Below, piece by piece: positions 1 through 64,000 of a stretch of DNA of 64,000 nucleotides. The stretch comes from Buxus sempervirens (lineage: Eukaryota; Streptophyta; Magnoliopsida; Buxales; Buxaceae). The stretch lies in assembly GCA_947561395.2 (NCBI GenBank), contig OX387183.1, positions 37,188,853-37,252,852 of the forward strand, written 5' to 3'. Made by a program: the position numbers and the translations under genes. How positions within the stretch are numbered: the stretch's first letter is position 1; each line of letters begins with the position of its first letter. The notes under the pieces are model-generated. The model had not been told where the DNA came from, did no database searches, and worked only from the letters and a program-made list of their open reading frames with translations.

Positions 1-1090
1 GTCCATGTGTATCCGGTAACTAAGGCCGGATACACCCCGAATTGTGGTTTTTTTTGTATGTTTTGATGCCTTGCCGAAATTTGGAGCGATTTGAACCAAA
101 AACCACTGAACCAACAGGGTTTCCGGGTCACCCGGAAACCCAACTTGGGACATGGACTGCCGGTCCAACTCGGAATACCCGTGGGCCTTCCAACGGGGCC
201 CACCAAGCCCAATGAACCCCAAAGCATGCTAATTAAACAACTTAAGTAAAATAAGCCATTTGAACCGGGCGGGCCAAACCCAATGCGGCCCACCCGTGCC
301 CTGGAATGTGTAATGGACATATGAATTGCATGGTTCGGCCGAGACCATGGGCTAGGGCCTGTCGGGCCCACCAAAGCCCGCTAACCAAACCAAGGAAGGG
401 TGCAAACCCCAACTTCAAAGCAATGGGCTTTCAAGCCTAAAATCTGGACTACGGGCCCCAAGCCCAACATCCAACCCACCTGGGTGAATTTAAATAAGAT
501 AAATTAAAGACATTTTGGCAACCAACTTGGGGGGCCCACCCAGGGGCCCACAAATCAATGCCGGCCCGCTTCTTACATGGAAATCACTTAAGTATCCAAC
601 TTGAACAAACTAAATAAAACCAACACACTTCACCAAAGCCCACAGGGCCTCCTAGGCTTAGACAGAGGCCCACATGGGCACATGGGCTTACCCAAGCCCA
701 CCAAGGACACCGTGGGCCTTCCAACGGGGCCCACCCAATCAGACTCAGACAATTTAAGTTAAGCAAAGATAAAATCAACTAAAGGGACCCACACCACTCA
801 GGTGGTCCCGCCAAGACCTAACTTAAATACCTGCTGGATTAGGAATCGGGTGAGAACCAAGCAAGAGAGCTGACTCAAACCAAGGAACCCACGGGACCCG
901 TCATCCGACGGGGTGGACTGGGGTGTCTACGGACTTCCCCAGACCACAACCGAGAACCAAACTTAGAATCTCAAGCCGCAGACCAAAAAGCCCTAAATAG
1001 ACGAGATTAGGCACCCAGGTGTCCGCCTGCACCCCATCAGGCGGTGGCGACTCCGAAATTACCCCGTGCCGCGTTTCCCACGCGCGCACA
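1..1090 (+). mobile_element. Family-1 LTR copy A (3' part, cut by window edge)
   Basis: The sequence matches the ends of four other LTR copies in this window (8451-11515, 60704-64000 and, inverted, 14330-17430 and 33139-36320). It ends at 1090 in the family terminus CGCGCACA. It keeps one palindrome at 7-35: arms GTGTATCCGG and CCGGATACAC around 9 nt. The LTR abuts the last coding part of an antisense gene at 1091, so it was inserted there. Whether it is a solo LTR cannot be told, because the other side is outside the window. Confidence 0.85.
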
Positions 1091-2689
1091 GGTCTGTCTA
1101 ATCCGCATGCTCCTAAGGCTGGCTAAAGCATCCTGGTGCTTCTGCCGTATCATCTGGACCTTAAAGCGGCGAGCCTGCCTCTGCTCCTCAAGTTGCTTTT
1201 CCATAGCAAGACGGCGGGATACCTGCTCTTCAAGTTGCCTCTCCATATCAAGGCCTCATATCCTAAGCTACTGGGCCTCTCGTACCCATATCTGTTGAAG
1301 TCGCTTGTAAGAGGCTCTCTTAGACTCCAGGATATCTTCACAAGTAGGAGCCAAAACTGCAGGAGGATCTTCGGGTACTGGGGCCTGACTCTGTATCTGC
1401 TCCTTGATCCAGAAGAGATAGTCCTTCACATGGGACTCTGAGAAGACTGGGCTCCGCATGAAACGAACGTAGGACCACTCCCTCATCAACCAAGCGTTTA
1501 GCTTCATGGTGGTTGGTGAAAGTGGCCCAAGATGGTACTCATACCCACTTGGGATTATAATCCCCTGGGTCACTCTGAATTGACGAAGAACCCGCAAAGG
1601 GAGGTAAAGCACAGCATGACTCAAGCCAGCCAGAACCAAAAATTTGCGGTCTCGAAAGCTGATCACGATCTCGGCATTGGGCTGATAAGTACCAGGTCAC
1701 CTCACCTGATCATCCTGGAGTGTAGCCAAGAAAGTAAACCAACCCTGTTTACCTCCTGGAATGTCAGGACACCCCGGGTGCTCATCAAGATGGGAACCTT
1801 CAAGCTTGGGAAGAAGTGTCTATTGATCTCCTCAATTTGACTCAGGTGGTCAAGTAACCAAAGCTGTAAAGGAGGAGTGATATTTCAATATATTGTAAAA
1901 AACAAAAGAAAAAAAAAGCAAAAAAAAAAAAAAAAAAATAAGAGCAAAGCAAAAGGAAAAAATAAAAAGAAGGAATTTTACCTGCAGGATAGGGGCACAT
2001 GACAGAAGCGCTTCTTCTTCCTGTGATAACAATTAGATAAACCCTGGTACATCCCTGCCAAAATCATAGGGGCCAATCTCTCCTACTCCCTAACCTGGCA
2101 TACAACTGAGATAAGGGCCAAGTCGACCTCATCGTCATCCCGTGGAAAAAGCAGTTGATTAACCACTATCAGGGTTAGAGCATTGAACCTAGCTTCCTTG
2201 TTCTCCCCCCTCAAGAGCTTCTCAATCAGAAAAGACTTGGACAAAGTCAGAAGGGTATCAGAATCCCCTAAATCCTTCTTCCCTATACCCAGAAGAGTAG
2301 AAGCCTCTTTCTTGTAACTAGGCCTAAGGGGTGGGTTCACTACCTTCTCTGCAAACCTCAAGCCCAAGATGGTTTCAACCTCTTCAATGGTGGGGTTCAT
2401 CTCATGGTCTCCAAAACGAAAAAGGTTTAGGTCAGGTACCTAGTGGCCAATCATGGCTTCAATAACTTCAGACTTGAAGGGAATCTTTGGGATAAGCAGA
2501 ACGTGACCTAGATGGGTGGAATCCCATTTCCTCCTCTTCATCAAGAGTCATACAATTAACCCACCTAGTGTAGAATGAATCTACGGGGTTATACCTAGTA
2601 AGGTTAGGGGGTTTTGATCTAAAAGGTTGTTTTCCAGGGGAGGCCGTGTGGATAGATAATAATGGGGCAGAAGATGGTCCGGAATCCAT
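1091..2689 (-). pseudogene. Antisense DUF7745-like gene of element X, truncated by LTR A
   Basis: The likely start is ATG 2689-2687, about 110 nt after a minus-strand TATA box (2807-2801). Coding segments lie at 2689-2083 (one in-frame stop near 2412 and a shift near 2470), then about 2080-1980, 1860-1268 and 1246-1091. Conserved features are a motif FRFGDHEMNPTIEEVETILG near the middle, a block ending in NQLLFPRDDDEVDLAL, and a later LPLRVLRQF...Q block. This order recalls DUF7745 proteins found in plant transposons. That is recognition by eye, not by profile. The C-terminus is a charged coiled coil (repeated RQLEEQ / KQLEEQ). Introns have GT-AG borders, for example the donor GTAAAATTCC near 1985. 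LTR A cuts off the last part at 1090. Function unknown; probably non-functional now. Confidence 0.6.
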
Positions 2690-2800
2690 TGAGGATGATT
2701 GGAGCTTGCTAAGAATCAATGGGAGGAAGAAAAAGGCGAAAAAAGGGTTTTCTAAACTCAAAAACCCGTAAAAAAGACTCAAATCCCGAGGTTGGTTGCA

Positions 2801-2807
2801 TTTATAG
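2801..2807 (-). promoter_or_regulatory. TATA box of the antisense DUF7745-like gene
   Basis: Minus strand reads GCTATAAATGC here. It lies 11 bp from the nearest edge of a four-palindrome array (2818-2962) and about 110 nt before the ATG at 2689. The same array-to-TATA distance is seen in family-1 LTRs. Confidence 0.6.
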
Positions 2808-2817
2808 CATGTTTTAA

Positions 2818-2962
2818 TGTATCCGATATATCAGATCGGATACAAAGGATTTCCTTCATATTCGACAAACAATGCCGGCTACAAAAGGGATCTATGTGTA
2901 TCCGATATAATATGCCGGATACAATAAAATTTCAGTGTATCCGATCTGATATATCGGATACA
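2818..2962. repeat. Four-palindrome array (39/40/39-bp steps) upstream of the antisense gene
   Basis: Palindromes with arms like TGTATCCGA...(T/G)CGGATACA start at 2818, 2857, 2897 and 2936. The second is decayed (CATATTCG...GCCGGCTACA). Each is about 27 bp with about 12 bp between. The phase matches LTR arrays elsewhere in the window. Confidence 0.9.
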
Positions 2963-3162: not shown

Positions 3163-5991
3163 CTACTCCTGTGCAGGATCACCCCTGCGTCCTCTACCCC
3201 GTGCTCCTCTGCGGCCTCTACCTCGAGATGGTCGGCGCCTATAATATGCCAGAAGTCTCTCTACCATATAGTACGGTCTCCGACCCACGAAGGACTGAAG
3301 CTGATACTCAATACAGTTGTCCGATGTGTCGGGGGAAGGAACAGGAACAGAATCAGAAGAACCCTCTGGCTCAGCAGGAACAGGCTCGACTGGCAGGCTA
3401 GCCGCATCAGGCTCAACTGGGTCCACAACCGCAGCAGTCTCAACTCCCGCAGCTCCAGAAGGCTCGGCAGTGGTAGAAGAAGGACCAGGAACAGAAACAT
3501 ATAGGTCAATGGAAATAAAGTTAGAAATTGAAGCATCAAAATGAACCAAGGAGGGGAAATTAAAGAAAGCTTACCAAGGATGTCTGCAACAGGAACTAGG
3601 GGATCCGGAACAATTGGGTCAGTAGCAGGGATGTCCTCCGGCTCAAGAACTATCATTGGAGATGAGGGTCCCACAGGATCAGATACAGCAAAAGCCACAA
3701 CCGGGTCAACAGCTGGGGTATCCTCGGGATCAGTAGCCCGAACAGGAGATGGATCAGGAACAGGAAGATCTGACTCAAAGGCAGCATGAGGATCCGGGAC
3801 TGGACCCTGCGAAAATCAAAACAGCTCATATCAGAACAAACAGAGAAACATGGAAGTGAAAGAGATGAAGTTATGAAGAACTAGATACCTGGCTAGCCCT
3901 AAGCTCAGCAACCAGAGCCTCCAGATCTCTGATTCGAGCATCACTCTGGGCCACAACCGCATCATGCTCAGCAATCATATCATCAACTGCAGCCCGCTGA
4001 CTTTGGAACCGGTCCCGAAGAGCATTCAACTCCTCTACCTGCCAATGAGAAAGGGATTAGAGTCACAAGTACAGAATTGAGGGAAATGAGATAAAAAATG
4101 AAGATCATGAAACTTACAGTGTCATCATGGACCCAGATGTAGATCCCACCAATCTCTGTCACTCCGGCACGAGTGGGTCTATCCATCAGGCATCCAATGG
4201 ACACCCTCCTGATCCACTCGTCGTAATCCCCAGCTACTGTAAGCCCCTTTGCATCCTGATACTGATCAAACTGATCAACATCAAAACCAGGCAGGAGCGT
4301 GTCGGGACCCACAAGAGGAGGAGGAACTGGGATACAAGGCATGCCTGTGTGCTGATAGTACAGGCGCTCTCCCAGGTACATCACCCTACCAAGCCTCCCA
4401 ATGAAGCACTGGTAGGGCTAACGTCGGAGGTCTCAGTCAAAAGCGTCCTGTACTATCATCTCACGGGCAACCCCGATATCCATATCGTCGAAGCTTGCTG
4501 ATAGGAGCTGCAAAGAAGAATAAGGGTGTCAGATATAAATAAGGTACAAAAAAAGAAAAAAAAAAGAAAGAAAAGAGAAAGGGATCAAGAATTTTACATC
4601 AGATCGTCAGGCACGATCCAAGTAAACCCGAGCAGTACGAGGCTGACTCCTGTCTGCATCTCTGACCTGGGCGGACCACCGCAGGGCAACAGGGAACTCC
4701 GCAACACCAAGCACGGGGGACGGGCGGAAGTAAGTCTTGTAAGTGTACATGAATACTTGACAAAAGAGAAATTAGTCAAGGATAAAGAAGATAAAGCCTA
4801 GGGAATAAGACAAGGCAGATGAATTCAGTACCTGAAGGATCTGCCAGAAGAACCCGCAACTAGCTCCGTCACCCCTCGGAGCGGCCAAGCCTCGAACTAC
4901 TCAGCATAATCCGACCAAGATAGTCCCATATATAAGCCGACCCCATGCTAACTGTCGGGTCTAGTGGAGATCTCTCAAAGCATCCAAAAAGAGAGTACTA
5001 ACACTGGTCATGTCCTCCTGGAAGAAGCAACTCCCGAGCATTAGCAAAAATACATCCCGGAATATAGGTGCAAAGGCTGCATCCTCCATGGTAATGGTCG
5101 CGTGCCTCCCCTCAAAGTGTCGGGTGAGACTCTCTCGCAACCAGATAATGGAGATACGACCGGTCCGCCCGTCCCAAGCAGCGTCAAGCAAGTCCTGGTA
5201 TCCCAAGAGAAGGCCAATGTCTGCAGCTAAAGGCCGGTCCAACACGATAGTTCGCCCCATCAGAGGAATGCCGGTGATCACAACAAAATTGGAAGGGCGG
5301 ATCCCAAGCTCCACGTCCGGCAGATGAAAGGACTGCGTCTCTGGGAAGTACCGCTCCATCATGGCAAAAATAAGAGGGCGGTCAGCTCGAAATGCGGGGA
5401 TACTGAGAAAATAATCCAAGCGGCACCTGCCGAACTCACGCCTAAGTGCCGGAGAAAGCGTCTACACCAACTCATTGAATCTCCCCCAATTGCCTCGTAG
5501 ATGGGAAGGAGGATACGGAAGAGGAACATTGGCCCGGATGCACATGGAGGGGTGGCTATCCAAACCACTAATGAGCTCTGTATCATGAACAGACGCTCTC
5601 AGCTCCGCGGAGATCGCTAGGCGGAAAACTGAAGCAACACCCTCCTGACCTGAAGCACCAGCCCGGCCTCAGCCCCTCTCTTTGACTCGGCCTTGGCCCC
5701 TCTCTCCAACTCTGCCTCCACCTCTCTCTCGGCCTTTACCACGACCTTGAGCAGGAGCAACAACAGGCTAAAAGCATAAATGAATAAGCAAAGTCGGTTT
5801 CGCGGGAAGCAAGAAAAGGAAAAAAGAATTTGAAGGCCTACCTCAGCAGAGACCTCTCCGGAACTCTCTCTGGAATCATCCAGCGGCTCCAACAGGGTAG
5901 CACTAGAACTCACCTCTATCCGAGCCCGCGAAGTGGAGGGCTGATCAGCAGGGTCAGCCTCCTCTCGAGCACGGGAACGACTCCTTGCCAT
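3163..5991 (-). pseudogene. Antisense plant mobile domain (PMD) gene of element X
   Basis: This is a multi-exon minus-strand gene. The start ATG 5991-5989 (MARSRSRAREE) follows a CTATAG acceptor. Exons with GT-AG borders: 5991-5842, 5745-4832, 4735-4598, 4507-4118, 4038-3889, 3806-3575 and about 3490-3163. The PMD core is in the second exon: ERYFPETQSFHLPDVELGI, then an ITGIPLMGRTIVLDRPL block, as in aminotransferase-like PMD proteins. The exon at 4507-4118 carries YLGERLYYQHTG and an EWIRRVSIG block. The next is a coiled coil, followed by a Pro/Asp/Glu-rich linker. The C-terminus is RG-rich (3166-3230: repeated RGRG/RRG), suggesting nucleic-acid binding. In-frame stops (for example near 4945, 4605, 4435) and a phase problem at the second exon show decay. 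The last acceptor lacks its AG. PMD proteins are known in plant transposons and in the Arabidopsis silencing factors MAIN/MAIL1. The role here is unknown. Confidence 0.7.
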
Positions 5992-7525: not shown

Positions 7526-7579
7526 CCTAGTGTATCCGACATGATAACCTAGTGTATCCGGCCATTTATGTCGGATACA

Positions 7580-8149: not shown

Positions 8150-8250
8150 TGTAGACACCCCAAATTGCACAGTAAAAATGATGGATAATTGGAAAAAATC
8201 ATTCCTTCCTTTGAAAACAGCACAAAAATTCAGATTTATGCATTTCTCCT

Positions 8251-8394
8251 TGTATTCGATAACTCAGGTCGGATACAAGCAAATAATTTTATATCCGACA
8301 TAAGTCGTCGGATACAAGCAGACATTAGTGTATCCGACGACACATGTCGGATACAAAAATAATTGCTTGTATCCAATCTGAGTTGTCGGATACA
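8251..8394. repeat. Four-palindrome array, exact 39-bp steps (X LTR)
   Basis: Palindromes start at 8251, 8290, 8329 and 8368: arms (T)GTATTCGA/TATATCCGAC/TGTATCCGAC/TGTATCCAA paired with GTCGGATACA-type arms. Without the nested LTR the array edge lies about 164 bp from the TATA box at 11628, as in LTRs F and H. Confidence 0.9.
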
Positions 8395-15369: not shown

Positions 15370-15475
15370 GTGTATCCGGCAACTTAGGCCGGATACACAT
15401 GGTCTGCAAGTGATCCGGCCAGAGTGGCCGGATACACAGGGGCCATGGGTGATCCGGCCTGAGTTGCCGGATCAC
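15370..15475. repeat. Downstream three-palindrome run in LTR C, 39-bp steps
   Basis: Palindrome centres are 15384, 15423 and 15462. Arms: GTGTATCCGGC/GCCGGATACAC, ATCCGGCCA/TGGCCGGAT and GTGATCCGGC/GCCGGATCAC. The first and third differ in both arms in a compensating way. Confidence 0.95.
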
Positions 15476-16636: not shown

Positions 16637-16884
16637 TGTATCCGGCAACTCAGACCGGATACACTAAGGTTCCTTCATATCCGGCCTTTATGACCGGATA
16701 TACTAAGGTTCCTTTGTATCCGGTCTTCAATGCTGGATACAAAACATAATCATTTTAAAATTAAATGCCGCTGCGAATTTGTCGGGCAATCGGCGCGAAT
16801 CTCACGCGAAAATCTTCTTGTATCCGGCCTTCAAGTCCGGTCATGAAGGGGAGCTAGTGTATCCGGTATATTTGACCGGATACA
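16637..16884. repeat. Promoter palindrome runs in LTR C (3 + 2, 39-bp steps)
   Basis: Starts at 16637, 16676 and 16715, then after a 104-bp interval at 16819 and 16858. The edge at 16637 is 10 bp from the minus-strand TATA box. The second palindrome reads ATATCCGG/CCGGATAT, a paired change from GTATCCGG/CCGGATAC. Confidence 0.95.
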
Positions 16885-34179: not shown

Positions 34180-34284
34180 GTGTATCCGGCAACTCAAGCC
34201 GGATACACATGGTCTGCAAGTGATCCGGCCAGAGTGGCCGGATACACAGGGGCCATGGGTGATCGGGCCTGAGTTGCCGGATCA
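34180..34284. repeat. Downstream three-palindrome run in LTR D
   Basis: Centres 34194, 34233 and 34272, exact 39-bp steps. The third has lost one pairing (GATCGGGC against GCCGGATC). Confidence 0.95.
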
Positions 34285-35514
34285 CCCTGGAATGGCCTTT
34301 TCTGGGACTTTTGCCATTCAGGGTGTTTCCAGGGGGTTCCTAGGGGTGTTCTAGCACTGGTGTGGGCCACGGGGCAGGCTCACAGTGGTTCAACCCTGGG
34401 GGAGACCCCATTTCGGTCTTCTTTTGGGACACAACGGATTCCAACAGGGAGGAGGAGGCATAAGGTCTTGCCTCCTCTCATTTGGACCTGACTTTGGCAG
34501 TTGCACAGGGACCTTGACGTCCCTATTTGGTTGTCATCAACTTTACACAGCAGCGAACCTTACGGGAAGTGGTAAAGACAGTAACTAAACTTAACATACA
34601 TGCTTTTGAACCAAGAAGAATATGCATGCGTTCTTGTGTGTTGTGAGCGTGAGGAGTGGGGGGCCTAGGCCTGTGCTCATGCATGCCATGAGATGGCTAA
34701 CGGATCATACACAAAGTGACCTAGCATGGCCATAGAGGGTGTGTGCAGGTGTGCATGCATGCATGTGAACAAAAGGGTTAACTAGCATACGTGCTCATAA
34801 GCAATAAAATGATACTAGCATGTATCACCTAAAATTCTACCCATGGCCGAAATTCCTGCACTTATTCTCCTAGTCCACAAGCATCTAATGAAGGGAATGG
34901 AGGGGGGATTACATGGGGGATACATTGGATGAAGAAGTAGGAACATGCTCCTACTGCAGAAGGTTCAAATAAAACCAAAAAAGACAGTTAAAGGGTGCTG
35001 CAAAGTTGGTGAAAATGGACCTTCATGCTCACTAATTGAGACCTACGCGGACCTCCTACTGGCGGTGACTTTCATGTCACGAAAATAAAGGCAAATGCAT
35101 GCTTAGACACCATGAAAATGAACCCATGCAAAGAAGGAAGCAAACATAGGAACATTTTCGGAAAAATCTGATTTTAATGTATAATGAGTACAACATAATG
35201 GGGAATCATTCCTGATGGTTCTTGGCTTCCGGGTGGAGGTGGAGGTGCTTCCTTGAGGATGGACAGCTGCTGGAAGCTCTCCCTCTTGACAGCAACAGCA
35301 ATGGCTCCTTCTTGTGTGGGGGTGCAAGTGATGAGGAGGAAGATGGGGGGAGGGTGTAGTGCCTTGGGGTGGTGTAGGGAGGTGGTGGGGGGCAAGAGGA
35401 GCTTGGAGAGGGAGGGATTCGGGTGAGAAGGAGTGGGAGGAGAAGGCTTAAAATCGCAAAAGAAAGGCCAACCCCGAAAATGAGCTGCTGTTGGCTATTT
35501 ATAAGCAAACTTAA

Positions 35515-35762
35515 TGTATCCGGCAACTCAGGCCGGATACACTAAGGTTCCTTCATATCCGGCCTTTATGACCGGATATACTAAGGTTCCTTTGTATCCG
35601 GTCTTCAATGCCGGATACAAAACATAATCATTTGAAAATTAAATGCCGCCGCGAATTTGTCGAGCAATCGGCGCGAATCTCGTGCGAAAATCTTCTTGTA
35701 TCCGGCCTTCAAGTCCAGTCATGAAGGGGAGCTAGTGTATCCGGTATATTTGACTGGATACA
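35515..35762. repeat. Promoter palindrome runs in LTR D (3 + 2)
   Basis: Starts 35515, 35554, 35593, then 35697 and 35736. The near edge is 11 bp from the TATA box. Same layout as LTR C. Confidence 0.95.
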
Positions 35763-40234: not shown

Positions 40235-40617
40235 TTGAGCTAGAAGACTTGGAAGAGATGAGGAGGCTAGCTCTAAACCGACAGATGGCACTTAAACAAA
40301 GAATTGCCAGATCTTATAACCGCCGAGTGAAACATAAGTCATTTCCTCAAGGGGACCTAGTTTGGAAAACCCTTCTGCCAATAGGGAAAAAGGACTCCTT
40401 ATACGGAAAGTGGTCATCTACATGGGAAGGACCACTGCAAGTCAGCAAAGTATTGCCTGGAGGGGCATACCATATACAATCGTTAGATGGCCAAGGAAAG
40501 AAGATTATCAATGGCCAGTTTTTGAAACGGTATTATCCCACTATTTGGCAAAGCCGCGAAAATAATAATGAACTAGAGGAAACCAGGAATAAATTAATTC
40601 CTAACTGCTCAGTATAG
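40228..40617 (+). pseudogene. Element Y integrase C-terminus with GPY/F-like module
   Basis: Continues integrase in a shifted frame: RSYNRRVKHKSFPQGDLVW, then KWSSTWEGPLQVSKVLPGGA (GPL in place of GPY) and a final FLKRYYPTIW. The stop TAG is at 40615-40617. No chromodomain seen, as expected for Tat. Confidence 0.85.
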
Positions 40618-41429: not shown

Positions 41430-44197
41430 TTACCTTTCAAATAAAGACTTAAACCGGGCATGATCATACTTCACCCGCTCCAACAGGCACTGCATCTCAG
41501 CTCGGCGTATCTCCACCTCCCGTTCATCTCCCATGTGCCCTTCCAAATGATGACGACTTGACTCGATCAATGTCCATTGAGCTTTAATGGAGTCTTTAAG
41601 ATGTTTTTCCTCTGACTTGAGCTAAGATAATTCGGCCGGAGCAGCCACCGATATACTATCAACCAGAGAGGGTTGTTCATAAGTATTGGCACGAAGGGTT
41701 CGCCTCAGACCTTCAATCTGACGATGATGACCAAACACTTCACTAATTTCCCGACGAAAGTCGGAGCACCTCGTCATGACAGAACGAAGAAAATCCATGG
41801 CTTCCCTCAACCGTGGCACAGCGCTATAGAATTCAAATATAGAAAGTAATTGACCTTCGGCCATGGGATCCCCATGAGAATTCATTCCCATAGCGCGAAC
41901 AAGCAACAATCAGATTTCATTTAGCTCATCATCAGAGAGATCTTCAGGCCGGCGAAGAACAAGAGATCGAAGTTCATCTCGACTGTCAAAGTCTGGAAGG
42001 AATGTTGGACGAAGATCGCTAAGCTCTGGAGATTTAAGACAACGGTCTATCTCCGCAAACCATGATCTGACAAATCCAAAACAAGTGCCAAGGAGATCAC
42101 TGAAATCATCTTGGCCAGCCATGGGAATTTTTGGTTCAGAAGGCAATCAATCAGAAGAAGAATCCGATAAAGTATTGCCAGGAAGGGTAGACAGACCAGC
42201 TTCATCAAGGCCGGGACAAGGAACAGGAGTGGCCTGCTTAAACGCATTAGGCGAAGGATTGGCCGGGGCGGTGACAGGCTCAGCCGAGAGATGTGGGGGA
42301 GGGGTGACATAATCAAACGAATGAGGAGGAGTCGGCATGGGAGACGACTGACCGCTACTCCCAAAACCAACGGGAGGACCATACCGAGGGCAAGATAAGT
42401 CAATATCTTCTTCTTCATTTGAAGAATCATCATCAACATTGATATGTTCACCCGGATGCCGAACCCGAAACCGCATACTGGAACTAGTTGCATAAGGCCG
42501 ACTCCCGGATATCTCGCTAATCCTTCGCTTCTTTAGTGGCGATCTTTTGGATGATGGTTGGCTCCGGTTGGCAGTGGCCTTTGATGGTCGCCTCCAGCAA
42601 GCAGTGACCGTCGGCGTCGTTCGGCCGTTCCTCTTCTTTCTTGGAGCACTGGTCGACCAACGTCCATCTGGTAAACATTGAAAAAGTTAACACGACCGGA
42701 TATAGGAAAATGAATTCACAGGGCAGTAAAAAAAAGAGTTACCTGAATACTTAGTCTCATAAACCTCACGGAGCTTACCAATGCTTACAACATCGGCCTC
42801 AGTCAGCCAAAAGAGCTCAGTATAGGAGGCCAAGTCAAGCTTGACAAAGTCAGAATAAGTTTGAGCCCACCACGACCGAATTGAAGGTTCGGTAGATGAT
42901 TCCCGAGGAGGAGGATAGTTGCGGAAACGGTCGGAGAGATCGTGGAACCAACTGGTGACTAAAGACAAATAGTGGGGATTGAGGACCGACCGAGAATCGC
43001 CGTTGACAGAGGGGGATCAAAGAAGGGGAATCCCTTGGCCATATCCAAGTTGCCGACTAACAAAATGCGGCAGGTAGATTTCAACTCCTTCTCTTCTAGA
43101 AGTAGAAGGAGCATCCCGGTTATGCAAGCCAAAGGGAAGCTCCCAGGCAATAAGGAAACTGGCCATAGCACGTCAGCGAGTTCAGGAGAAGAATTGATGG
43201 CAGCGAAAAGAGGGGACCCATGAAATTCCTCTAAGGAAAAATGATAAAATAAGGATTGATTTTCTTCTTGTATATTCACAAAAAAGAAACGAAGAACATC
43301 ATTAAAAGGCAAACGCCTGGGTGTCGCAGTAAGCCAGCGACGACCGGCGTAATGACAATCAGGAAAAGGATTGTCTACGGCTTCACAGAAGAAGCCGGGA
43401 AAGTATTCGTAAAACCAAAATTGTAAAAACCAGAGAGGGCCACTAGCAGTTCCTAATCGGCTGGAAGATAAGTTATGTAAGCCACGATAGACTTGGCTGA
43501 GAAAGAAAGGAGCTAAAGCTAGACAGTGACCCTGAGCAAGGGCCACCGCAATACCAGCAAACTCCTTGACCATCTGAGCAGATGGGCCACAACAAATAAA
43601 ATGGCAGAAAAGCATCAACAGGAAAGAGCAATGCTCTTGGAAAGAAGGAGTGGTATTAACATTCAAGGTGCGCTTGGCATGAACAAAGGTACTAAAAGCT
43701 GAAGAGGCATAGGTGGTGCTAAAGATAGAAGTAGTGAAAGGAGATAGACCATGATCTATTTCCTCCCCAAGAACCGGAAGACCGGTGATACAGCAAACAT
43801 CTAGGAGTGTTGGAGTCATGGGACCATGATGGAAAGAGAAAGTGTTGGAACCTCGGCACCAGAAGAATGAAGCAACACCGAGCAAGGTAGGATTGAAAAG
43901 GATACAGAAGGTAGAATAAAAGATTATCTCCGCCAACCCAAGCCTAACCCAGGATTCCATGAAATAGGGACGGAGCCTAGCTACTCAGCTATTCCAATTA
44001 GAAGCACGCCTCGGCCAAGAATGGGGAGGCGTAATCAGGGAACCCCAGTTCACATCCTCATTGGTGCCGATTAAGTGATAGGAAGAATCCATGATAGGGG
44101 GGACGTCTGCATCTTCTACATTAGTGCATGGACCAAGAACAGTACCATTTTCACCCTCGTCAAACAGATTCAAGTCATTAGGGTTTTCGTCCGCCAT
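41430..44197 (-). pseudogene. Element Y antisense PMD gene, proximal copy
   Basis: Starts at ATG 44197-44195 (MADENPNDLNLFDEGENG). A TGA at 43987-43985 precedes the PMD core (43960-42960): SNTFSFHHGPMTPTLLDV, CITGLPVLGEEID, then a long helical region and PLWFLQFWFYEYFPGF...RRWL. A frameshift near 42965 leads to HDLSDRFRNYPPP and YTELFWLTEADVVS. An intron (about 42741-42669, GTAAC...TTTACCAG) joins to a basic, NLS-like segment (SKRSPLKKRR) and an acidic/Ser-rich linker, then helical C-terminal blocks. Stops at 42147, 41910 and 41622; the frame ends TAA 41432-41430. The architecture is PMD plus nuclear-localisation-like tail. This is an antisense accessory gene between pol and 3' LTR, as in other Tat elements. 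Decayed. Confidence 0.8.
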
Positions 44198-44642
44198 TTT
44201 CAGTACAAGGTGGGAGACAGAAGAAACTTGCAGAGATGAGGTAGAAAGAAGCGCAGTGGGAAGAACGTCTGCCGAAAGAGAAAAGATTCGTAATGATTCG
44301 AACTATCAGGAAGGACTTGGATAAGACGGTTGTCTTCCCCAAAAAGGTGTTGATGGGACGATTGCCTTCCCGAAAAAATCGAAATGGCGGTTGGATATCT
44401 TCTCAATTAAAGCATTTTAAAAGTAAAGATCATACGAACGAATCGATTTAAAAAGATGAATTTTGTCAAGAAAGGGGCCGATTCTAATAGCCATGACAGT
44501 TGGCACATGGATTTCAAAAACCATACAAATTCATTAAACATATTTACAATGGAATGCTTGCAATTTCATAATACAAACGGTCAAAGGACTCTTGGGCAGA
44601 CCGTTTTCCTTCTAGCATAGTGGACCGAAGCAGCAATGAAAC
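44198..44642. other. Spacer between the two antisense PMD genes of Y
   Basis: Upstream region of the proximal gene. Three related phrases (GACGGTTGTCTTCC, GACGATTGCCTTCC, GGCGGTTGGATATC; 44325-44395) form a weak repeat with steps of about 34-35 bp. No clear TATA or gene. Confidence 0.4.
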
Positions 44643-47593
44643 CTAAGCTGCTTCTATATCTGGTTCCAGCTCACGAGCAATTTCGTCGCATTGACGGGTC
44701 TTTTCCTTCATGGCATCCTCAGCAACATCATTAGCACGGAGGAGTTCCTCCCATTGAGTTACAAGTTCAGATCTCTTAGTCTGCAGCTCTGCAATTTGAC
44801 GGTCAAGATCCGCAATATTACCATCGATGGTTTTTACGTGGTGGGCCGATTCGACATATTGGTCTCGACAAACCTCTCGTTCATTCTTCAGTTGTTGCCA
44901 AAATTGATATCGGCCAGTAACAGAACTAGCCGCATTGGTTATTTCATCTATCTCAGCCGAATAACGGTCGAAAATAACCTTGAAGGAATAAAAGAGAGAA
45001 AGCCGAGAGAACACCGATTTTACATCAGAAGACACTGAAGGAATACACTGGAGCTTTGCTGCCAATGCAATCACACGAGTAAGAGTCGTATCTGAAATTC
45101 CGACTATGCCTGGAGCCAGAAGATTGATAATCTCAGACCGAATACGATTTGGAGATAAGGAGGAGGGAGCAGGAGAACTGTCCGATAGGAACTTGGACCG
45201 AACATCATTCAACATGACATCCAATCGTCCATGATGATCATCAGAAAGAGACCCTGCGCTAGGAACAAATTCCGGAACAAGTGATGAACTGGTATTCCAT
45301 ACGTCAATGGCCACTTGCCTCAGCTGATCAATGCCCTCTTCCGCTCCCATAACAGAAGGACCTAGGGGGATATCAGTCATAGCAGAAGGACCCGGAGGGA
45401 TATCAGTCCCAATAGAGGCAGTAGATGTAGTTGTTTTGACAACCGGAGGTACAACCTCCACTTCATACCCAAGATGCACTTCTGGAGAAGAATCTCTTTC
45501 TGAAGAATCCTCACGAGGAAAAAGATGTTCCTGATCTTCAAGAGAATCCATCGGATCGGTAGGATCGACGAAGTCGGCCGGGCCCAAAGCAGACATTGGA
45601 TCAATAACAAGGGGAACTGGATCCAAGAGGATTCCATGGCATTGGGAGGAAGAATGACCGAACCTGAGGAACTCACTCCCTAGAAAAACAGAGTGTTAAG
45701 AGAAGAAACGAAAGAAAAAAGAATGAATAGTGAGAAGCTTACTGGATCCAACAACTGTCGACGGCGTCGTCGTAATGGAACGTCATCAGGGTCATCAACC
45801 GAATCCATCGAGGAGGCAGGGCGTTCTTGTAATGGAGCATCATCAGGATCTTCGGCCGAATCCCTCAAAGGAGAAGTATACGACGAAGCTTCCAAAGCTA
45901 AAGGAGGAAGAACCGGTGCTTTACCTATTGACCGAAAAACAGACTCAGTATAGCATAATTGGAAACAAGAAGGAGAAGAATGTACCTTTTTCGGTCGGCG
46001 CAGGCAAAGGTTTAAACAGACCTAACTTCTCAAGATAATAATAAGCTGAATGGCGGCAGATTTCCCTCCAGAAAGAATCCCACCATACATGAAAATCACA
46101 TCGGCAATCAGCATGAGAAGGAAGGAAGGGAAGACGAAAGTCGACAGCTACTGCCCTATATCACTCTTCCATTTGAGCAGCATCACCTACAGTGACAGTC
46201 GGCCGCTCAATGGAATTGGTGTCAATAGTAAATAGACTTTCCATATCAAGGTAGGGTATCCTCTGATCACAACAAAATTGCCGGCCTACACAATTCGGTA
46301 AGTAGACTTCGAATCCCGGTTTCTTATTGATTGACTTCACAGAATAATTCAAATTTCGAGCTAGCAAAAAGATGGCCCAAATAAGATGCTGTGCATCGGT
46401 TATGGCATCCACCATAGAAAGGAAACCGGGAGCTTGAGCAGAGATTTTGAAAGGAGGAGTGGGGAAGTGTCGAAGTTCAAAAAAGAATTGAAAGCACTCG
46501 GAAAAAGAGCAATCAACAGGAGTCGCTTCCAAACAAACATAACCACCAAACTCAGCAGGCGTAGGGTTCGTCACCAAAGTATAGAATTTGGACAGAAAAT
46601 AGTGGTAAGCCCAGAATTGGAGAAACTACAACGGACCCCCAGGATTCTGAAGGGTGCCATGAACCAATTCTTGAAGTGAACGGTATAAGACCAATAAAAA
46701 GGAGCAAGTGCAACTTCGTACTCCCCCATAATAAGCTTGACCAGTGAGCTGTATTCTCTGGTAACTGCTTGGGCTTTAGGGCAGAAGACGAAATTGCAGA
46801 AGAAGTAAAGAAGGAATTAAAAGTGCTCCACATCACCCTCGTATTCTGGAGATTGGAACTGTTTACAGTCAGTAATATAGGACCGATAAGAGGTACGAAT
46901 CGGATCCGCCTGTTGAGGTCCACTTCCTGACAATACTTTTCCTTTCTGCCGAGAGGATCCCTCCTTCTTAGAAGGTTTTGGTTCCTTCATTTGGGGTTGC
47001 TTCCTCTTCTTTAGTACCTCTTTTCCCTTTTCACCTACCTCCACCAAGGGTAAATGCTTGTAAGCCTCAAGATTTATCATACCTATCTGAACCTCGTGAC
47101 CAATCACAAAGAAGCCGGTAATGAAGCAGACATCCATAACAGTGGGAGTCATCGGCCCGTAAGGGAAGTTGAAAGTATTGTTTTGGGCATTCTAGAATAA
47201 TCTTATGGCTTAGAGAAGATCGCGATTAAGAGGAATCGGACGGTAGGAAAATTGAATCATATCATAAATACCAGTTTTGCGCTAGGTAACTGCAAAATGC
47301 TCTTTCATTCGGCCGACCCAAGCTGTCCATTCAGGATAAACAGTCGTCCAACTCCGAAAATGGAAAGATTGACTGAGACTTCTTCCATCGGTAAGAAGTA
47401 AGGGGCCCTTCACTTTATCAGTCGAAGCATCTAAAGGAGCATCACGAGAACAAAGGAAAGGATCGACATATAGCGAGCCATTGAAAGATTCGACCGGAGA
47501 AGAGTAGCAAATAATGTTGCCCACCGTTGAAGGAAAAGGAGAAAGAAAAGACAATAGCCGAAAGAGACAAGGAAAGTAAAAATTGGCTGCAGT
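44643..47593 (-). pseudogene. Element Y antisense PMD gene, distal copy
   Basis: Minus-strand TATA at 47603-47594. No clean ATG is visible. The PMD core is broken: WTAWVGRMKEHF (about 47310), FNFPYGPMTPTVMDVCFITG (47150-47095), a Lys-rich linker, FLSMVDAITDAQHLIWAIF (46400) and NCVGRQFCCDQRIPYLD. Two GT-AG introns flank an Asp/Pro-rich exon with a basic RRRRRQ stretch (donor near 46000, acceptor near 45930; donor near 45735, acceptor near 45680). The last exon (45626-44643) is Pro/Ser/Asp-rich and ends in a coiled coil (ADLDRQIAELQTKRSELVTQ). Several stops and shifts. It is a diverged paralogue of the proximal gene, so Y carries two PMD genes in tandem. Confidence 0.75.
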
Positions 47594-50476: not shown

Positions 50477-52667
50477 AAAATTCAGTTACACGCTAATGAT
50501 TGCTGCCGACGTGACCTAACAGCCTAACGGCCTTGCAGCCACGTGGCAGCCCACTTTCAAGCATGAATGAAGCACGGACCTGTGAGACAAGGGAAAAAAT
50601 CACCGGAATGATCATCCCTCCGTCAGCACATGGGGCTCAATGTAAAAATTGGGAGAGTCGCCACCATTCAGATTTTGGGTGTGAATGGACACCAAAAGTT
50701 TAAAAATAAGCAAAAAGTGCAACAATGCCAATTCTAAGGTAAAAATAACCCTACTTGAAAATCAAATCCAGAGATGGGTAAGGGGATTAGATTATGAACG
50801 GGGGAAGGTGTTAAGCACCCCCATTCATCCACACGAAGTGGTTGCCAAGTGTTTGTTCATGCGAAAAAAGAAATAAGAAAGCTTGCTAAAAGTCATGAAA
50901 AACCTTGGAAAAGGCCAAATATATGATATCTTCACATGAAGATCCAAATGGATTTCAAATCCTCTCTTATGTCAATATCATTTCTGGAATATCACAAAAA
51001 GATGGAAATCAAAGCACAAGTTGCTCAAAACCAAGTTGAATCAAATCCGGTAAATTCGGCGAAAGTAATACCATTTGTCTTGAAATCATTCAAATCCAAT
51101 TTTAAATCAAATCAAACCAAATCCATTTGAAAGATTATGGTAAATAATAGTCTCATGCAAAATTTCAAGTAATTCCGGGTGAAAACCTAGGAGTTATGCT
51201 CCTTGTAAAGTTGCTGCTGGAGAAAATCCGAAATGGCAAGTGGGCAACTTTGGAAACTTATTTAGAAAAATCCACTCCATAAAAATCCACGAAATTTGGT
51301 GTGATTGAAGTCTATATGGCCATCTTTCCAAAGAAACTATCCTCATACAAAAATTCCTTCGGATGTGCCTTGGGTGGTCTCCCGAACAGGCCCCGAAGAT
51401 CACAAATTTACCCAGAAAAGTACTGATGAACAGTTCTGAGTAAATCCGTTACCAATAATTCAAATGGAGTCAAACAATTATGAAACCAATTGGATTTGAA
51501 AATAGACTCATAAAGGAGTGCCCAGAAACAAAAATCATTCGAATCGAACTTAAAACGAACACATGGCGCTCCGTCTAAGTGACAACATCTGTATTTAAAC
51601 CTGAACTGTCCAATCAACTTCGACAGAGAGGTGTCAAAAATCTGCTCTATAGAAATTAATGAAATTTGGTGGACATAAACTAGACAACCTCACCTTTCCC
51701 ATGGTTCTAGAATTGCTCCAAAATTCATCCGGACGATGAAGTTATGAGCGTCCGAAGTAAGGGTACAGTTGCTGTCAAGCTAAGCCATTTTGAGTAAAAC
51801 CAATGCAAAACTGTGACCAAGTGTGTGTAATTCGTGCAAAATGAACACAAAACCTTTAAAAATCATTTAAAAACATTCCAAAATTGATTGAGGCCATTTA
51901 TTTGTGATTTATCACAATGAATGTAATAAATCCCCAAATATGAGCCTATCCCGCCAAAATAGTGCTATGTATGTGCAAGTATGAAAAATCATACAAGATC
52001 AATATAACAATATAGCATACATACATATTCATCAAAATAAGGTTCTAAAACAACCTAGGGTTTAGTTCCATTATCGTTTCGCTTTGTTCTCTCTCCCAGT
52101 TAAACACGGTTCTTCAAGATAATCATGGGATACTTTGAATATGAAACGGTTTTCAATCATTCAAAAAGGCTTTATGCTACATAGGTTCTAGCACTAGGGT
52201 CAATCCCCAGTCTCGTTTCTCCTAGATCCCGCCTTCACGTTTTACGGCTAGGGGGAGTCTTGAGATACTTTGAGCCAGGGAAGGGTTTTCATATACATAG
52301 AAGGCCTTATTCTATAGAAAGGTAGAAGAAGAGATCTAGATCTAAGAATGTAAATATAGAAAATAAAAAAGAGGTTTGAGGCTTACCTGGGTTCTGGAAG
52401 CACTTCCGCAGCGGTTTCCCTCTTCTCTCGGAGCTCTTCTTGGCGAGGATTCAAGGCAAGAGTTAATGGCCATTTGCTTAAGGAGGAGCCTCCTATTTAT
52501 AGGCAAAGGTTAGGGTTAGGGTTGGTGAGAATGGTAGACACAACATAATGTCTATAGCCCACCAACCTTAACCCTAAGGCTATTTCCGAGATTTCCCCTC
52601 ATTTAATGAAGGACATGATGGTAAAAGGTGAAATCTCTCGGAAAACCCTAATTTTGAGCAAAACTTA

Positions 52668-52811
52668 TGTATCCGGCATGTCAGGCCGGATACACAAGTG
52701 CCTTAATGTATCCGGCATATGATGCCGGATACATTAAGGGCTACTTGTATCCGGTATTATCTGCCGGATACAAAGAAGATCCTTTGTATCCGGCATTATC
52801 TGTCGGATACA
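52668..52811. repeat. Four-palindrome array, exact 39-bp steps (LTR F)
   Basis: Starts at 52668, 52707, 52746 and 52785. Arms TGTATCCGGC / GCCGGATACA, with changed bases only in two. Loop contents differ (ATGTCAG, ATATGAT, ATTATCT). The spacers also differ. The edge is about 166 bp from TATA. Confidence 0.97.
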
Positions 52812-53803: not shown

Positions 53804-56275
53804 TGTGAGACATGGAAAAAAATCGAGCTAGTGACTTTCCTAATCATCACACGGCATTCGTCAAAAGGGAGAGTCGCCACCATTCTTTTTAGGTGTGAAT
53901 GGACACCAAAATCATCAAAATAAGCACAAAAGGGTAAATCTAGATTAAAAAGAATTCCACTTTAAAATAAAAAATCCAGAGATGGGTAAGGGGATTAGAT
54001 TATGAACGGGGGAAGGTGTTAGGCACCCCCATTCACCCACACAAGGTGGTTGCCAAGTGTTGTTCATGCTCAAAATAAAGAAAGCTTGCTAATTAAAATA
54101 ATCAAAAAGGCTTTAAAAGGATTAAACACATGTATGATCCCTCCACATGAGAAGTCCAATGAATCTTAGACTTTCTTTTATGGAAGTATCACTTCTGGGA
54201 CATCACTATTAAATTGAAATCAAAGCAAAACTTGAACACGAACAAGTTAAGACAAATCCGGAAAATTCGGTAAAAGATGGAGCCATTTGTCTTTAAATCA
54301 TCCAAATCAAATTTAAATTGAATCAAACCAAATCCATTTGAAAGATTATGATAAATAGAAGACTCAGGAAAATTTTCAAGTAGATCCGATTAAAATCCTA
54401 AGAGCTATTCTTGTTTGAAATTCACTGTTATAAGTTGATAAAAGTGGCAAGTGGGCAAATTTGAAAACCTATTTGTGAAAATTGGCTTCATATAAATCAT
54501 TGAAACTTTGTAAGAATTAAGTACATGGTGCCATCTTTCAAATGAAATAAGCCTCACACGAAACTTCGTTCGAATGTGACTTGTGTGACCTCACGAACAT
54601 GCCCAGAGGATCACAGATCAACACAAAATTGTGCTATGGGATAGTTCTGAGTAAATCAGACACACAAGACACAAATGAAATCAAAAAATTTTGAAACCAA
54701 TTGGATTTGAAATTATACTCATAAAGGTAACACAGAAATCAAAATCACTCAAATCGGACTTAAAACGAGCAGATGGTGCTCATTCAAAGTGACAGGTTCA
54801 GCAATCTGACCTGAACTTACCTGTCGACTTTGATCAAATGGTTTCAAAAATCCACTACATAAAAATGGCTGAAATTTTACAGACAAGAACTAAACAGTCT
54901 CACCTTTCACATGTCTTTGGAATCACTCCAAAATTCATCCGGATGATGAAGTTATGATTGTCCGAAGTTAGGGTACGGATGCTGTCCAGTTTTGACATTT
55001 TAAAGTAAAATCAACCCAAAATAGTGATCAAGTGTGTGTAATCCGTGCAATCCAAACCAAACAAGTGTGTGTAATCCGTGCAATCCAAACCAAAATCATT
55101 TGAAAAAGTATTGAAAATCCTCCAGAAGGAAATAGGGTATGAATTTGGCTCCCCATTCTCTTTGATTGGAGAGAATATACCAAAGCCCCCAAAATGGAGC
55201 AAAATGCCCAAATCAGAGAGATTAGACCGAGGGGTCTTCTATATCCAAGGAGACACTTGCTTGTATTCATTTGAAAACCATTCAGAAATGTCCAAGAAAT
55301 GTTTGGGGCCATTCATTTCAGATCTACCATAACGAGTATGATAGATCCAACATATAAGCCGATTTCGACAAAACGAGTGCGATGTGTGCATGTGTAAAAA
55401 TCATCTCTTAAAATTAATCAACACATTACAAAATATAACATTCAAAACATATCAATCAAATGGGGGTTCTAATCACTAAGGTAGCATTCCCATTCTTGTT
55501 TCCCCTAGTTCTCTCTTCACTTTTAACAGCTAGAAGTAATCTTGAGATACTTTGAGTAGGAAATGGGGTTTCACACAACAATAGGCCATTAAAAGGGTTC
55601 TAGAACTAAGGTTCCATTCCCATTCTCGTTTCCCCTAGCTTTCTCTTCACGTTTTACGGCTAGAGATAGTCTTGAGGTAATTTGAGTAGGGAATGGGGTT
55701 TCAAACAAATTCAGGCCATTATTCTACAGAAAGGAAGAAGGAAGAACTAACCCTAGAATTTAAGAACAAAAAAGAAGAAGGGTTTAGACTTACCTAGGGT
55801 GTTGAAAGCAACGGGACAGAGGTTCCCTTCTTCACTTGGAGCTCCTCAATCTCCAACTCTTGGCCCTTTGCTTGAAGAGAGGCCTCCTATTTATAGGCAA
55901 AGGCTAGGGTAAGGGGTACCCTAATGCTAGACACAAAATAATGTCTAGAATCCACCCACTTAAACCCTAAGGCTATTTCCGGGAATTCCCACTCTTAGAA
56001 CAGGGATAAGATAGTAAAAAGTATAAACTTTCGGAATTTTTCAATTTCTGCAGCAAAATATTAGTATTCAACAGCTCAGGTCGAATACTAATAAACTTCT
56101 TTGTATCCGACATTATGTGCCGGATACATATAAACCAATTTGTATCCGACGATTAATGTCGGATACGCCGAATGATACTTTTATCCGAATTTTGATGTCG
56201 GATACAAAAGAAAAAGCTCTTTTAAGGATATTGGCCAATTATTCATCTTTTCAGGTGCAATTTGGGGTGTCTACA
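53804..56275 (-). mobile_element. Family-2 solo LTR H (2472 bp, TSD CCTTG)
   Basis: Flanked by CCTTG at 53799-53803 and 56276-56280. Plus strand begins TGTGAGACATGG and ends GGGGTGTCTACA. TATA at 55896-55888 (minus CTATAAATAGG). A four-palindrome array lies at 56063-56206. A ~90-bp segment with TTCCCCTAG...TACGGCTAGA...CTTGAG is duplicated (55490-55580 and 55610-55700). A 28-bp tandem duplication lies at 55037-55090. Confidence 0.9.
56063..56206. repeat. Four-palindrome array, exact 39-bp steps (LTR H)
   Basis: Starts at 56063, 56102, 56141 and 56180. The first has arms GTATTC / GAATAC, a compensating change against GTATCC / GGATAC in the others. The edge is about 167 bp from TATA. Confidence 0.92.
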
Positions 56276-60703: not shown

Positions 60704-61274
60704 TGTAAGCACCTCATTTTTGTGCTCCCAGAAGAGCTGGAAATGCAAAACTCGACTAAAAAGTCAAACCCTGAGGGGTCGAAATTTGACTTTTTGATCA
60801 AGTGAAAATTGTCCACCTTGCCTTATCTCAAGGGATAGAGAATCCCGACACGAGTCCAACGCAACTGAGTTTGCTGGAATCGGAGTTCGGATAAGGGTTC
60901 TGTGGGCTAGTCAAACTTGAGGATGAGCCGAAAGTTGACTTTTCCTTGAACCCCGTGCCTAGTGCTTAGCCCTATTTCATTGAATGGAGGGCTCCGATAC
61001 GAGTATAACGCAATTAAGTTTGCTCAAATGGGAGTTCAGATGAAGGAGATATGAGCTGTCGAAGTTTCCGCGTAGCAAAACCGGAAACTGCACATGTGGC
61101 ATAGGAACTGCCACGTGGCAGCCAACGCAGCAAAATATCTCGGGGACTAAATCTTGAATATCCAAAAATCTCAAGGACTAAACAAAAATTCGTACGGGGC
61201 AATCCGTAGATATCCAAAAGTGTCAAATCGGTCGAATCGGTCAAGTCGAAGGGCAAATCAGTAATTTTTTGATT

Positions 61275-61522
61275 TGTATCCGGTCAAATATGCCGGATAC
61301 ACATACCCCAGTGTGTAACCGACATCAAATGCCGTATACAAAAAGATTTTCACGCGAGATTCGCGCCGATCACCAGACAAATTCGCGGCGACATTTAATT
61401 TTCGAATGATCATGTTTTGTATCTGGCATTGAATGCTGGATACAAAGGAGCACCTGTGTAACTGGCCATGAAGGCCGGATATGAAGAGGGCTTAGTGTAT
61501 CCGGCCTGAGTTGCCGGATACA
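61275..61522. repeat. Promoter palindrome runs in LTR E (2 + 3, 39-bp steps)
   Basis: Starts 61275 and 61314, a 104-bp interval, then 61418, 61457 and 61496. It is the mirror layout of LTRs C and D, as expected from the opposite orientation. The last palindrome ends 11 bp before the TATA box. Confidence 0.95.
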
Positions 61523-63047: not shown

Positions 63048-64000
63048 ACAGAAATGCATCTTTTTGTGTTTTGTGATCTTTGGCCGAATTTTGTGACGGT
63101 TTGAACCAAACCAAGTGAACCTATAGGGTTTCCGGGCCACCCGGAAACCCAACTTGGGATCTGGACCAATGTCCAACTTGGAAACACTAGTGGGCCTTCC
63201 AACGGGGCCCACCAAGCTCGGTAAACTCAAAGCGTGCAAATGAATGAGTTAAATAGAATGAACCATTTGAATCAGGTGGGCCAAACCCAATGCGGCCCAC
63301 CCAAACCTTATTTTGTGGATTAATGCATGAATTGCGTGGTTTGGCCGAGACCACGGGCAAGGGCCTATCGGGCCCACCAAAGCCCACTAATCAACCTAAG
63401 TTAGCGTGCAAGCCCTACACTTCTAGGACTCAGGCTTTCAAGCCTAAAATTGGGCTATGGGCCCCAAGCTCAATGACCAATCCACTCTGGCTCAAATCAA
63501 GAAGAATAAATCAAAAACATTTTGGCAACCATCATGGGGGCCCACCCAGGGGCCCGCAAACCAACGTCGGCCCACTATTTGCATGAAAACCACTTAAGCT
63601 CCAAATCTGAACCTTAATGTAAAATAAATTCACTTATCCTAAGCCCACAGGGCCTCCTAGGCTAGACAGAGGCCCACCAGGGGCACATGAGGTTGCCCAG
63701 GCCCACCAGGGACACCGTGGGCCTTCCAACGGGGCCCACCCAATCAGACTCAGACCACCTAAAGTTAAGCAAGATAAAATCAACTAAAGGGACCCACGCC
63801 AACTCAGGTGGTCCTACCAAGACTTAATCTAAATTGCATGTTGGATTAGGAACCGGGTGAGAACCAAAAGAGAGCTGACTCAAACCAGGGAACCCACGAG
63901 ACCCGTCATCCAACGGGGTGGACTGGGGTGTCTACGGACTTCCCCCGACCATAGCCGAGACCCCGACTTAGAATCTCAAGCCACAGACCAAGGCCCAAAA

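Follow-up and report, generated by a model that had tools for sequence, protein, structure and literature searches.

Phased palindrome arrays in the window

The window, the 64-kb stretch of DNA analysed here, contains arrays of a 27-bp palindrome of the form TGTATCCGG-N9-CCGGATACA (9+9+9), whose copies follow each other at a step of 39 bp and are separated by spacers of 12 bp. Array F (52668..52811, minus strand) comprises four palindromes starting at 52668, 52707, 52746 and 52785, and lies upstream of the TATA box of a minus-strand LTR. Array X (8251..8394, plus strand; starts at 8251, 8290, 8329 and 8368) and array H (56063..56206, minus strand; starts at 56063, 56102, 56141 and 56180) also hold four palindromes each, and all twelve sites that the initial annotation had placed at exact 39-bp steps in these LTRs were recovered. 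In X and F, every one of the four passes the arm threshold. The first palindrome of H (56063) has degenerate arms (AGTATTCAA/TCGAATACT), yet it is palindromic and in register. LTR X starts at 8150..8170 (plus strand; TGTAGACACCCCAAATTGCAC), just behind a polypurine-like tract, GGGGCAGT. No TATAAATA was found for this LTR, and the sequence further downstream of array X is non-homologous to the other LTRs; this part of LTR X may have been recombined or truncated. A 148-bp tandem repeat lies just after array X (8562-8937) and also at 60761-61066.

The arrays had been described as an LTR feature, which applies to X, F and H; others lie outside LTRs. An internal quartet with steps of 39, 40 and 39 bp (2818..2962, minus strand) adjoins an antisense reading frame, ORF1, and appears to belong to the same element as LTR X, in which that element would end. 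Palindrome 7553 and a lone half-site at 7531, 22 bp apart and out of register (7531..7579, minus strand), are the counterpart of the two-site arrays upstream of a second antisense frame, ORF2. This pair, the sole clear off-register neighbour in the window, probably arose by deletion from a two-site array. Long LTRs of a gag-only family carry a three-site array whose third site is degenerate (15371..15475, no strand assigned; TGATCC arms), and an array of the same type occupies a second long LTR (34181..34285, no strand assigned). These two LTRs also hold 3+2-site arrays (16637..16884 and 35515..35762, both minus strand), with a minus-strand TATA box 10-11 bp and a TATA box 10 bp from the proximal site, respectively, and a 2+3-site array of the long-LTR family (61275..61522, plus strand) has a TATA box 11 bp downstream. 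The count of exactly four sites is therefore correct for X, F and H and does not extend to all arrays, as arrays of two, three and 3+2 sites occur; among 18 LTR arrays, 17 have four sites. Compared with its relatives, a three-site LTR array at L018:2446-2550 has lost exactly one unit of 39 bp.

The window was chosen independently of any step search. Allowing up to five arm mismatches with a 9-bp loop, we found 41 sites in it, giving 22 steps of 60 bp or less, 21 of which measured 39 bp and one 40 bp. When loops of 0-40 bp and at most one mismatch per arm were allowed, the loop was 9 bp in 26 of 30 arm pairs, 5 bp in three and 31 bp in one. GTATCCGG occurred 35 times (0.77 expected), and the 27-bp palindrome with up to three mismatches 33 times (0.04 expected). 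A sequence-blind scan of the window and 20 loci for chains of at least three palindromes returned a step of 39 bp in 31 of 43 cases, with no other step seen more than three times, while five mononucleotide shuffles contained no such chain. In this wider sample, 109 steps did not exceed 60 bp; 104 of them measured 39 bp, four 38 bp and one 40 bp. As every one of the loci (L005-L024) lies on contig C1 and was chosen from lists of exact matches, the step statistics outside the window are biased.

Other palindromes are present as well. A GGTTTCCGGGTCACCCGGAAACC-like palindrome occurs in three copies of a different repeat family (118-140, 10542-10564 and 63127-63149), and single palindromes of the same size, AGTTTCCG-N11-CGGAAACT, lie at 17050, 35937 and 61063, 192-212 bp from long-LTR arrays.

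Loop and step lengths across the genome

Across the host genome (676 Mb), a loop of 9 bp separates GTATCCGG from CCGGATAC in 20,444 of 20,703 pairs whose loops span 0-30 bp; like those below, this raw count is not one of independent events, since many copies are young and near-identical (four LTR pairs share 99.5-100% identity). Neighbouring starts with spacers of 0-30 bp were separated by 14 bp between the 8-bp cores, corresponding to a step of 39 bp, in 11,447 of 13,009 cases, and the double step appeared as a spacer of 53 bp in 6,844 of 7,937 (range 38-68). Reversed-pattern controls yielded genome counts of 0-2. A spacer of 27 bp was found 2,456 times; among the matches listed, the loops begin with ATAC or end with GTAT, and the spacer-27 matches look like shadows of such loops. 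If strand symmetry makes half of these shadows separate starts, we estimate, rather than count, truly off-step starts at about 330 of about 11,780 (3%). Variable steps among genome-wide copies, which had been named as an observation that would speak against a conserved register, were thus rare.

Arms are conserved, intervening DNA varies at fixed length

Across the 18 LTR arrays (22 found, minus four second LTRs of pairs), pairwise identity reached 0.87 and 0.89 in the two arms, compared with 0.56 in loops and 0.56 in spacers. In the flanks of the same LTRs it was 0.66 upstream (45 columns) and 0.82 downstream (119 columns, which take in X, partly non-homologous there). Between two LTRs, a mean of 30.6 of the 72 loop and spacer positions differ. 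Nevertheless, in 16 LTRs the array acquired only 0.006 indels per substitution, against 0.065 downstream and 0.073 upstream, with bootstrap intervals that do not overlap; X was left out because its downstream part is non-homologous, and L018 because it lost a whole unit. With L018 restored, the values were 0.009, 0.065 and 0.084. Per substitution, indels are about tenfold rarer in the array than in its flanks. These data bear out the earlier view that length is held fixed while sequence varies, and loops and spacers are not as conserved as the arms. That the intervening sequence is free, however, is true only in part. Loops of the TATA-proximal (fourth) sites of LTR quartets start with YCTGA in 15 of 17 distinct sites, loop 1 resembles inverted loop 4 (0.60), the outer loops tending to be inverted copies, and loop positions 9 and 17 covary.

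As 39 bp correspond to 3.7 helical turns, neighbouring palindromes do not lie on one face of the DNA. Core centres are 18 bp apart within a palindrome and 21 bp, or two helical turns, apart across the spacer, and dimer-dimer contacts across the spacer would fit a fixed length with variable sequence.

The last base of the half-site GTATCCGR (R8) varies by array: two sites agree in 0.847 of pairs within the same array and in 0.669 between arrays. In 38 arrays, R8 is A in 8/8 half-sites of X and of L023_679, in 7/8 of H and of L017 (7A/1G each) and in 6/8 of the window quartet at 2818 (6A/2G); L020 and the L022 internal array read 4A/4G, and the remaining 31 are mostly or only G. Palindrome 7553 of the X element is mixed. 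Whether R8 is G or A depends mainly on the array as a whole, the pattern that a shared trans-acting reader would give; the array-wide change could in part reflect shared ancestry or ageing. CpG was kept in 133 of 142 cells of the eight CCGG-core columns (sum of rows), in 142 of 178 over all ten arm columns and in 93 of 197 cells of flank columns, counted where at least three LTRs have CG. Within 71 LTR sites, the inner positions changed often (G8 to A in 23, C18 to T in 18), whereas the outer C5 and G21 changed in three and one. We therefore reject methylation decay as the sole cause of the R8 switch, as the equally methylatable outer C hardly changes. The sequence pattern speaks for a protein that recognises specific bases in the arms, with some pressure for symmetry on the outermost arm base and beside the loop.

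Four array classes lie at set distances from TATA-like boxes

Searching outward from the arrays, without a shuffled control, we found a TATA-like box at a fixed distance in four of six array classes, namely family-i LTRs, antisense ORF1, antisense ORF2 and the long-LTR family. For 16 of 18 family-i LTRs, the distance from the end of the quartet to TATAAATA downstream is 154-155 or 165-167 bp; of the other two, X has no TATA box and H reads 206 bp, which becomes 167 bp once its undetected fourth site is added. The two distance classes are about one helical turn apart, and the shift may be a single event. In the window, the TATAAATA of LTR F lies at 52494..52501 (minus strand), 166 bp from array F, and the box of LTR H has a derived position of 55888..55895 (minus strand), 206 bp from the third detected site and 167 bp from the array end.

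At antisense ORF1, the TATA box lies 11 bp from the array in 6/6 elements, although elements within a class are homologous and these represent fewer than six independent events. The window quartet at 2818..2962 has its box, antisense to pol, at 2801..2806 (minus strand), likewise 11 bp away. Arrays at antisense ORF2 have a TATA box at 6-7 bp in 5/6 elements, L013 having none; for the ORF2-type copy in the window (7531..7579), an antisense TATATAAG follows 6 bp beyond the site measured, which is the lone, out-of-register half-site. In the long-LTR family, the box is 10-11 bp away in 5/5 LTRs of four elements. No TATA box was present within 230 bp of the leader quartets (three elements, both sides) or of the 15371-type arrays, the second long-LTR class (either side examined), so an enhancer-like or other role is possible for these. 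Outside these two classes, the arrays keep a constant position ahead of a putative core promoter, as LTR cis-regulatory arrays do. About 100 bp past the TATA box, most family-i LTRs in the alignment contain a splice-donor-like CAGGTAAGCC, which suggests that the leader has an intron, and the leader array might lie within it.

Host elements and their antisense genes

Three elements of about 20 kb on contig C1 (L008-L010, L011-L013 and L014-L016) contain gag, pol and two antisense ORFs as judged by tblastn. Their shared genes are 88-99% identical over aligned pieces, and their LTR pairs, which start with TGTAGACACC, are 99.8-100% identical over 600 bp. Pfam domains at L015:3970-6867 follow the order RVT_1, RT_RNaseH, RVT_3, Integrase_H2C2 (below cut-off) and rve; in the other copies, pol was identified by tblastn alone. 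The second, archaeal-type RNase H (RVT_3), the pol order and the LTR pairs mark the hosts as putative Ty3/gypsy elements of the Tat type. Pfam further matched gag and G-patch in L009. The antisense genes, two per element, are of the plant-mobile-domain (PMD) type: ORF1 combines a weak PMD/DUF7745 match (L015) with a C-terminal part that looks coiled-coil-like by eye, and ORF2 an RG-rich N terminus with a PMD (L016, L010). In the window, remains of ORF1, with a PMD/DUF7745-like N-terminal and a coiled-coil-like C-terminal part, lie at 1040..2824 (minus strand; 73-87% identical to L015 copies over aligned pieces) and those of ORF2, with a PMD, at 4034..5683 (minus strand; 70-77% identical to L016 copies over aligned pieces).

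In these three elements, the arrays are placed in the LTR, in the leader and just upstream of the antisense ORFs. Coding parts contain only lone five-mismatch matches, in the antisense region, such that motif copies are confined to non-coding regions, as in the VANC system.

In a 9.5-kb element (L006/L007; LTRs 99.5% identical), tblastn matched part of gag but neither pol nor ORF1 or ORF2. This element has kept its LTR, leader and ORF2-promoter arrays, which regulation in trans would lead one to expect. The same arrays are found in a second family, whose LTRs measure at least 2.9 kb (window 14330-17210 and 33139-36097); its gag (PF03732; 29369..30451, minus strand) is 38-40% identical to that of the 20-kb elements, and the window copy gave no match to pol, ORF1 or ORF2. 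The window contains two further elements. A gypsy element at 36317-47317 has a pol 33-39% identical to that of the 20-kb elements over long pieces, and apparent antisense PMD ORFs at 42959-43984 (minus strand) with no GTATCCGG array near. A nested Ty1/copia element at 17433-23859 (its flanking repeats share 99% identity over 300 bp; RVT_2 at 18919-20541) carries an extra sense ORF, 21708-23090, between the reverse transcriptase and the 3' repeat, matching PF20167, 'putative plant transposon protein'; for copia elements, the accessible parts of PMC9289625 report no domain gain.

The arrays as putative protein-binding operators

The arrays are probably cooperative protein-binding cis-regulatory operators or enhancers of related Ty3/gypsy Tat-type elements. 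Each palindrome would present two GTATCCGR half-sites to one protein, and several copies of this protein would bind neighbouring palindromes at the 39-bp step, touching each other; protein copies in contact at a fixed step would make base identity matter in the arms and mainly length matter between them. The protein reader, its cooperativity and the sign of its effect are what we infer from these patterns. Activation or anti-silencing appears likelier than repression, because the elements were copied very recently and have the arrays in promoter-like places. The arrangement itself is real, strongly constrained, cis-regulatory in appearance and of a known general kind, and the class of mechanism is likely. 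None of the open-licence papers listed in our literature searches described palindromes phased at 39 bp in LTRs, which does not prove them unpublished, and the matches listed in a literature search with the motif letters look like chance primer matches.

As for who reads the arrays, a conserved plant transcription factor that recognises TATCC/GGATA-type half-sites, its sites having been collected by the elements, is a credible candidate that we rate somewhat short of probable; single-Myb SHAQKYF proteins, for example, may fit such half-sites. Repeated motifs through which an LTR recruits host activators are known (Tnt1, Tto1, ONSEN), which counts in its favour, as does the recurrence of the same arms and geometry in the long-LTR family with its distant gag and in a window copy of that family without pol, ORF1 or ORF2 match. 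However, L008-type LTR arrays and long-LTR arrays both adjoin TTAAGTTTGCT, so that common descent is possible instead of repeated recruitment, the R8 switch would require a host factor tolerating both bases, and no known site of such length, geometry and step appeared among the open-licence papers listed.

Alternatively, and tentatively, the elements may supply their own reader: antisense PMD-type ORF1/ORF2 proteins would bind the arrays and activate or unsilence the element promoters, including their own, in a VANC/VANDAL-like manner. Both antisense ORFs were matched in the three 20-kb elements, in the partly fetched L021 and in the window, ORF1 also in L022, and each has an array just upstream, with a TATA box in all but one case. 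The array-wide one-base switch also parallels the switch between C- and T-type VANC21 motifs described in the available text of PMC5735166. On the other hand, Pfam, PDB-sequence and NCBIfam searches found no DNA-binding domain in ORF1 or ORF2, and AlphaFold models from four-row alignments were unusable (mean pLDDT 35.5 for ORF1a and 33.2 for ORF2). Among 7,988 candidates scored in a large protein set, no ORF2 homologue reached E<=0.001; the PDB sequences gave a single chance-level row for ORF2 (E 0.79), NCBIfam returned coiled-coil-type matches for one window ORF and nothing for the others, and Pfam scans named no VANC-type protein, the matches being of gag, G-patch, pol and PMD types. Arrays occur in L006/L007 and in the window copy of the long-LTR family, neither of which gave a PMD match, whereas the gypsy element at 36317-47317 apparently has antisense PMD ORFs (42959-43984) and no GTATCCGG array near them. 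Many ORF2 copies among the best 116 of 3,334 candidates scored (91-100% identical) contain in-frame stops, and the accessible parts of PMC7156037 link Arabidopsis PMD proteins to both silencing and activation.

It is improbable that the palindromes act as RNA stem-loops or DNA cruciforms, with pairing rather than base identity conserved. Array F folds far better than shuffles (z -13.8 for DNA and -13.4 for RNA), but palindromes fold by construction. Some arms have changed on both sides and stayed palindromic (AATAACCGG/CCGGTTAAT and TTGATCCGG/CCGGATCAA), and in 119 distinct sites covariation exceeded column shuffles at pairs 0/26, 8/18, 9/17 (0/2000) and 4/22 (1/2000). Under a stricter control, in which partners were swapped among sites of the same array (5000 permutations), pair 0/26 kept its excess (25/5000; 67/5000 in the 16 less similar arrays) and pair 4/22 showed some (64/5000 in all arrays, 976/5000 in the 16 less similar ones). 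Complementarity at pair 8/18, in turn, was not higher inside single sites than across the sites of an array (700/5000), and the excess at 9/17 in all arrays (4/5000) was lost among the 16 less similar (3527/5000). Changes at arm positions 0-7 were one-sided in 106 cases, against 18 complementary and 8 non-complementary two-sided ones. There was no clear G-U preference (A-C 7 versus G-T 2 in the LTR sense, 8 versus 7 over the 119 sites), arrays that lie upstream of TATA boxes on one strand or the other do not match a single RNA, and no Rfam match above gathering score was obtained in the window. On these grounds, a hairpin or cruciform was rejected as the main reading.

Very improbable is an origin as young 39-bp minisatellites by tandem duplication or template switching, with the regularity reflecting origin only: although Tandem Repeats Finder assigns F a period of 39 (79% match), L018 lost exactly one unit and template switching can perfect palindromes, the loops of one array, compared directly, reach just 0.24-0.56 identity (14 quartets), each site is traceable across elements, indels are suppressed, and arms evolve more slowly and loops and spacers faster than the flanks, a pattern that duplicated units would not acquire by ageing neutrally. 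Plain tandem duplication was thus rejected, in agreement with the initial annotation, which had set the arrays apart from an ordinary tandem repeat. A tandem palindrome repeat of ordinary appearance occurs at L008:9457 and L008:9867 (CGTCTAAAA-gcctctgaa-TTTTAGACA, step 40-41, 11 units in one run); its loops are copied, in contrast to the 39-bp arrays.

Discussion

Read as putative operators, the arrays would work like VANC, E2 or EBNA1 arrays, a likeness that implies no membership. Papillomavirus E2 and EBV EBNA1 sites are multicopy palindromes at strict distances beside control regions, read by a self-encoded protein, and E2 sites have a variable centre of fixed length. The elements concerned are unrelated to ours, however, and no replication role is suggested for the arrays. 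U3 activator repeats upstream of TATA are known from Tnt1 (BII boxes), Tto1 (AC-I repeats), ONSEN (heat-shock elements) and HTLV-1 (21-bp Tax repeats); what differs here is the strict 39-bp phasing of palindromes, the variable spacers and the fact that the arrays recur at internal promoters in antisense orientation. VANDALs belong to the MULE-type DNA transposons, whereas the array hosts are LTR retrotransposons. Even so, according to the accessible parts of PMC5735166 and PMC10398659, the Arabidopsis VANDAL/VANC system likewise involves a mobile element with many short-motif copies in non-coding regions, a family-wide one-base motif switch and an element-encoded candidate regulatory protein. 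VANC21 motifs are described there as having one orientation and high density within rapidly diverging tandem repeats, in contrast to the inverted pairs at fixed step seen here.

In the consulted parts of PMC7264820 and PMC11963269, Tat/Retand-type elements have a long region between pol and the 3' LTR with antisense ORFs, as here. Retand antisense ORFs carry TRP28 (PF04195) according to these texts; in our Pfam scans, the antisense ORFs of L015/L016, L009 and L010 had no TRP28, but PMD/DUF7745 or nothing significant. Retand-type tandem arrays are called family-specific there, without an assigned function, and promoter-phased palindromes do not appear in those parts. The role of the antisense ORFs is called open and possibly regulatory in the same texts, and PMC7264820 mentions an own antisense promoter for maize Grande gene23. 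PMD occurs in plant gypsy elements (PMC9289625, in part), and the PMD proteins MAIN and MAIL1 act on genes with a common promoter motif, 'DOWN', in the portions of PMC7156037 available. Such work on antisense ORFs and PMD proteins makes a self-encoded reader attractive. One could then imagine, speculatively and on balance against the odds, a virus-like self-regulating circuit, in which an antisense-PMD oligomer on 39-bp phased palindromes activates or unsilences the element, its own genes and, in trans, gag-only relatives, and in which half-site base and reader shift together between lineages.

If the operator reading is true, the arrays would be a clear case in which distance and half-site identity are kept and the DNA between them is not, in an arrangement that recurs over 20,000 times within a single genome and is linked to promoters of several kinds. 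As bait DNA or through spacing mutants, they offer a handle on the control of giant Tat elements and on the role of their antisense PMD genes. Were the circuit also to prove true, it would give a function to the long-unexplained antisense ORFs of Tat elements.
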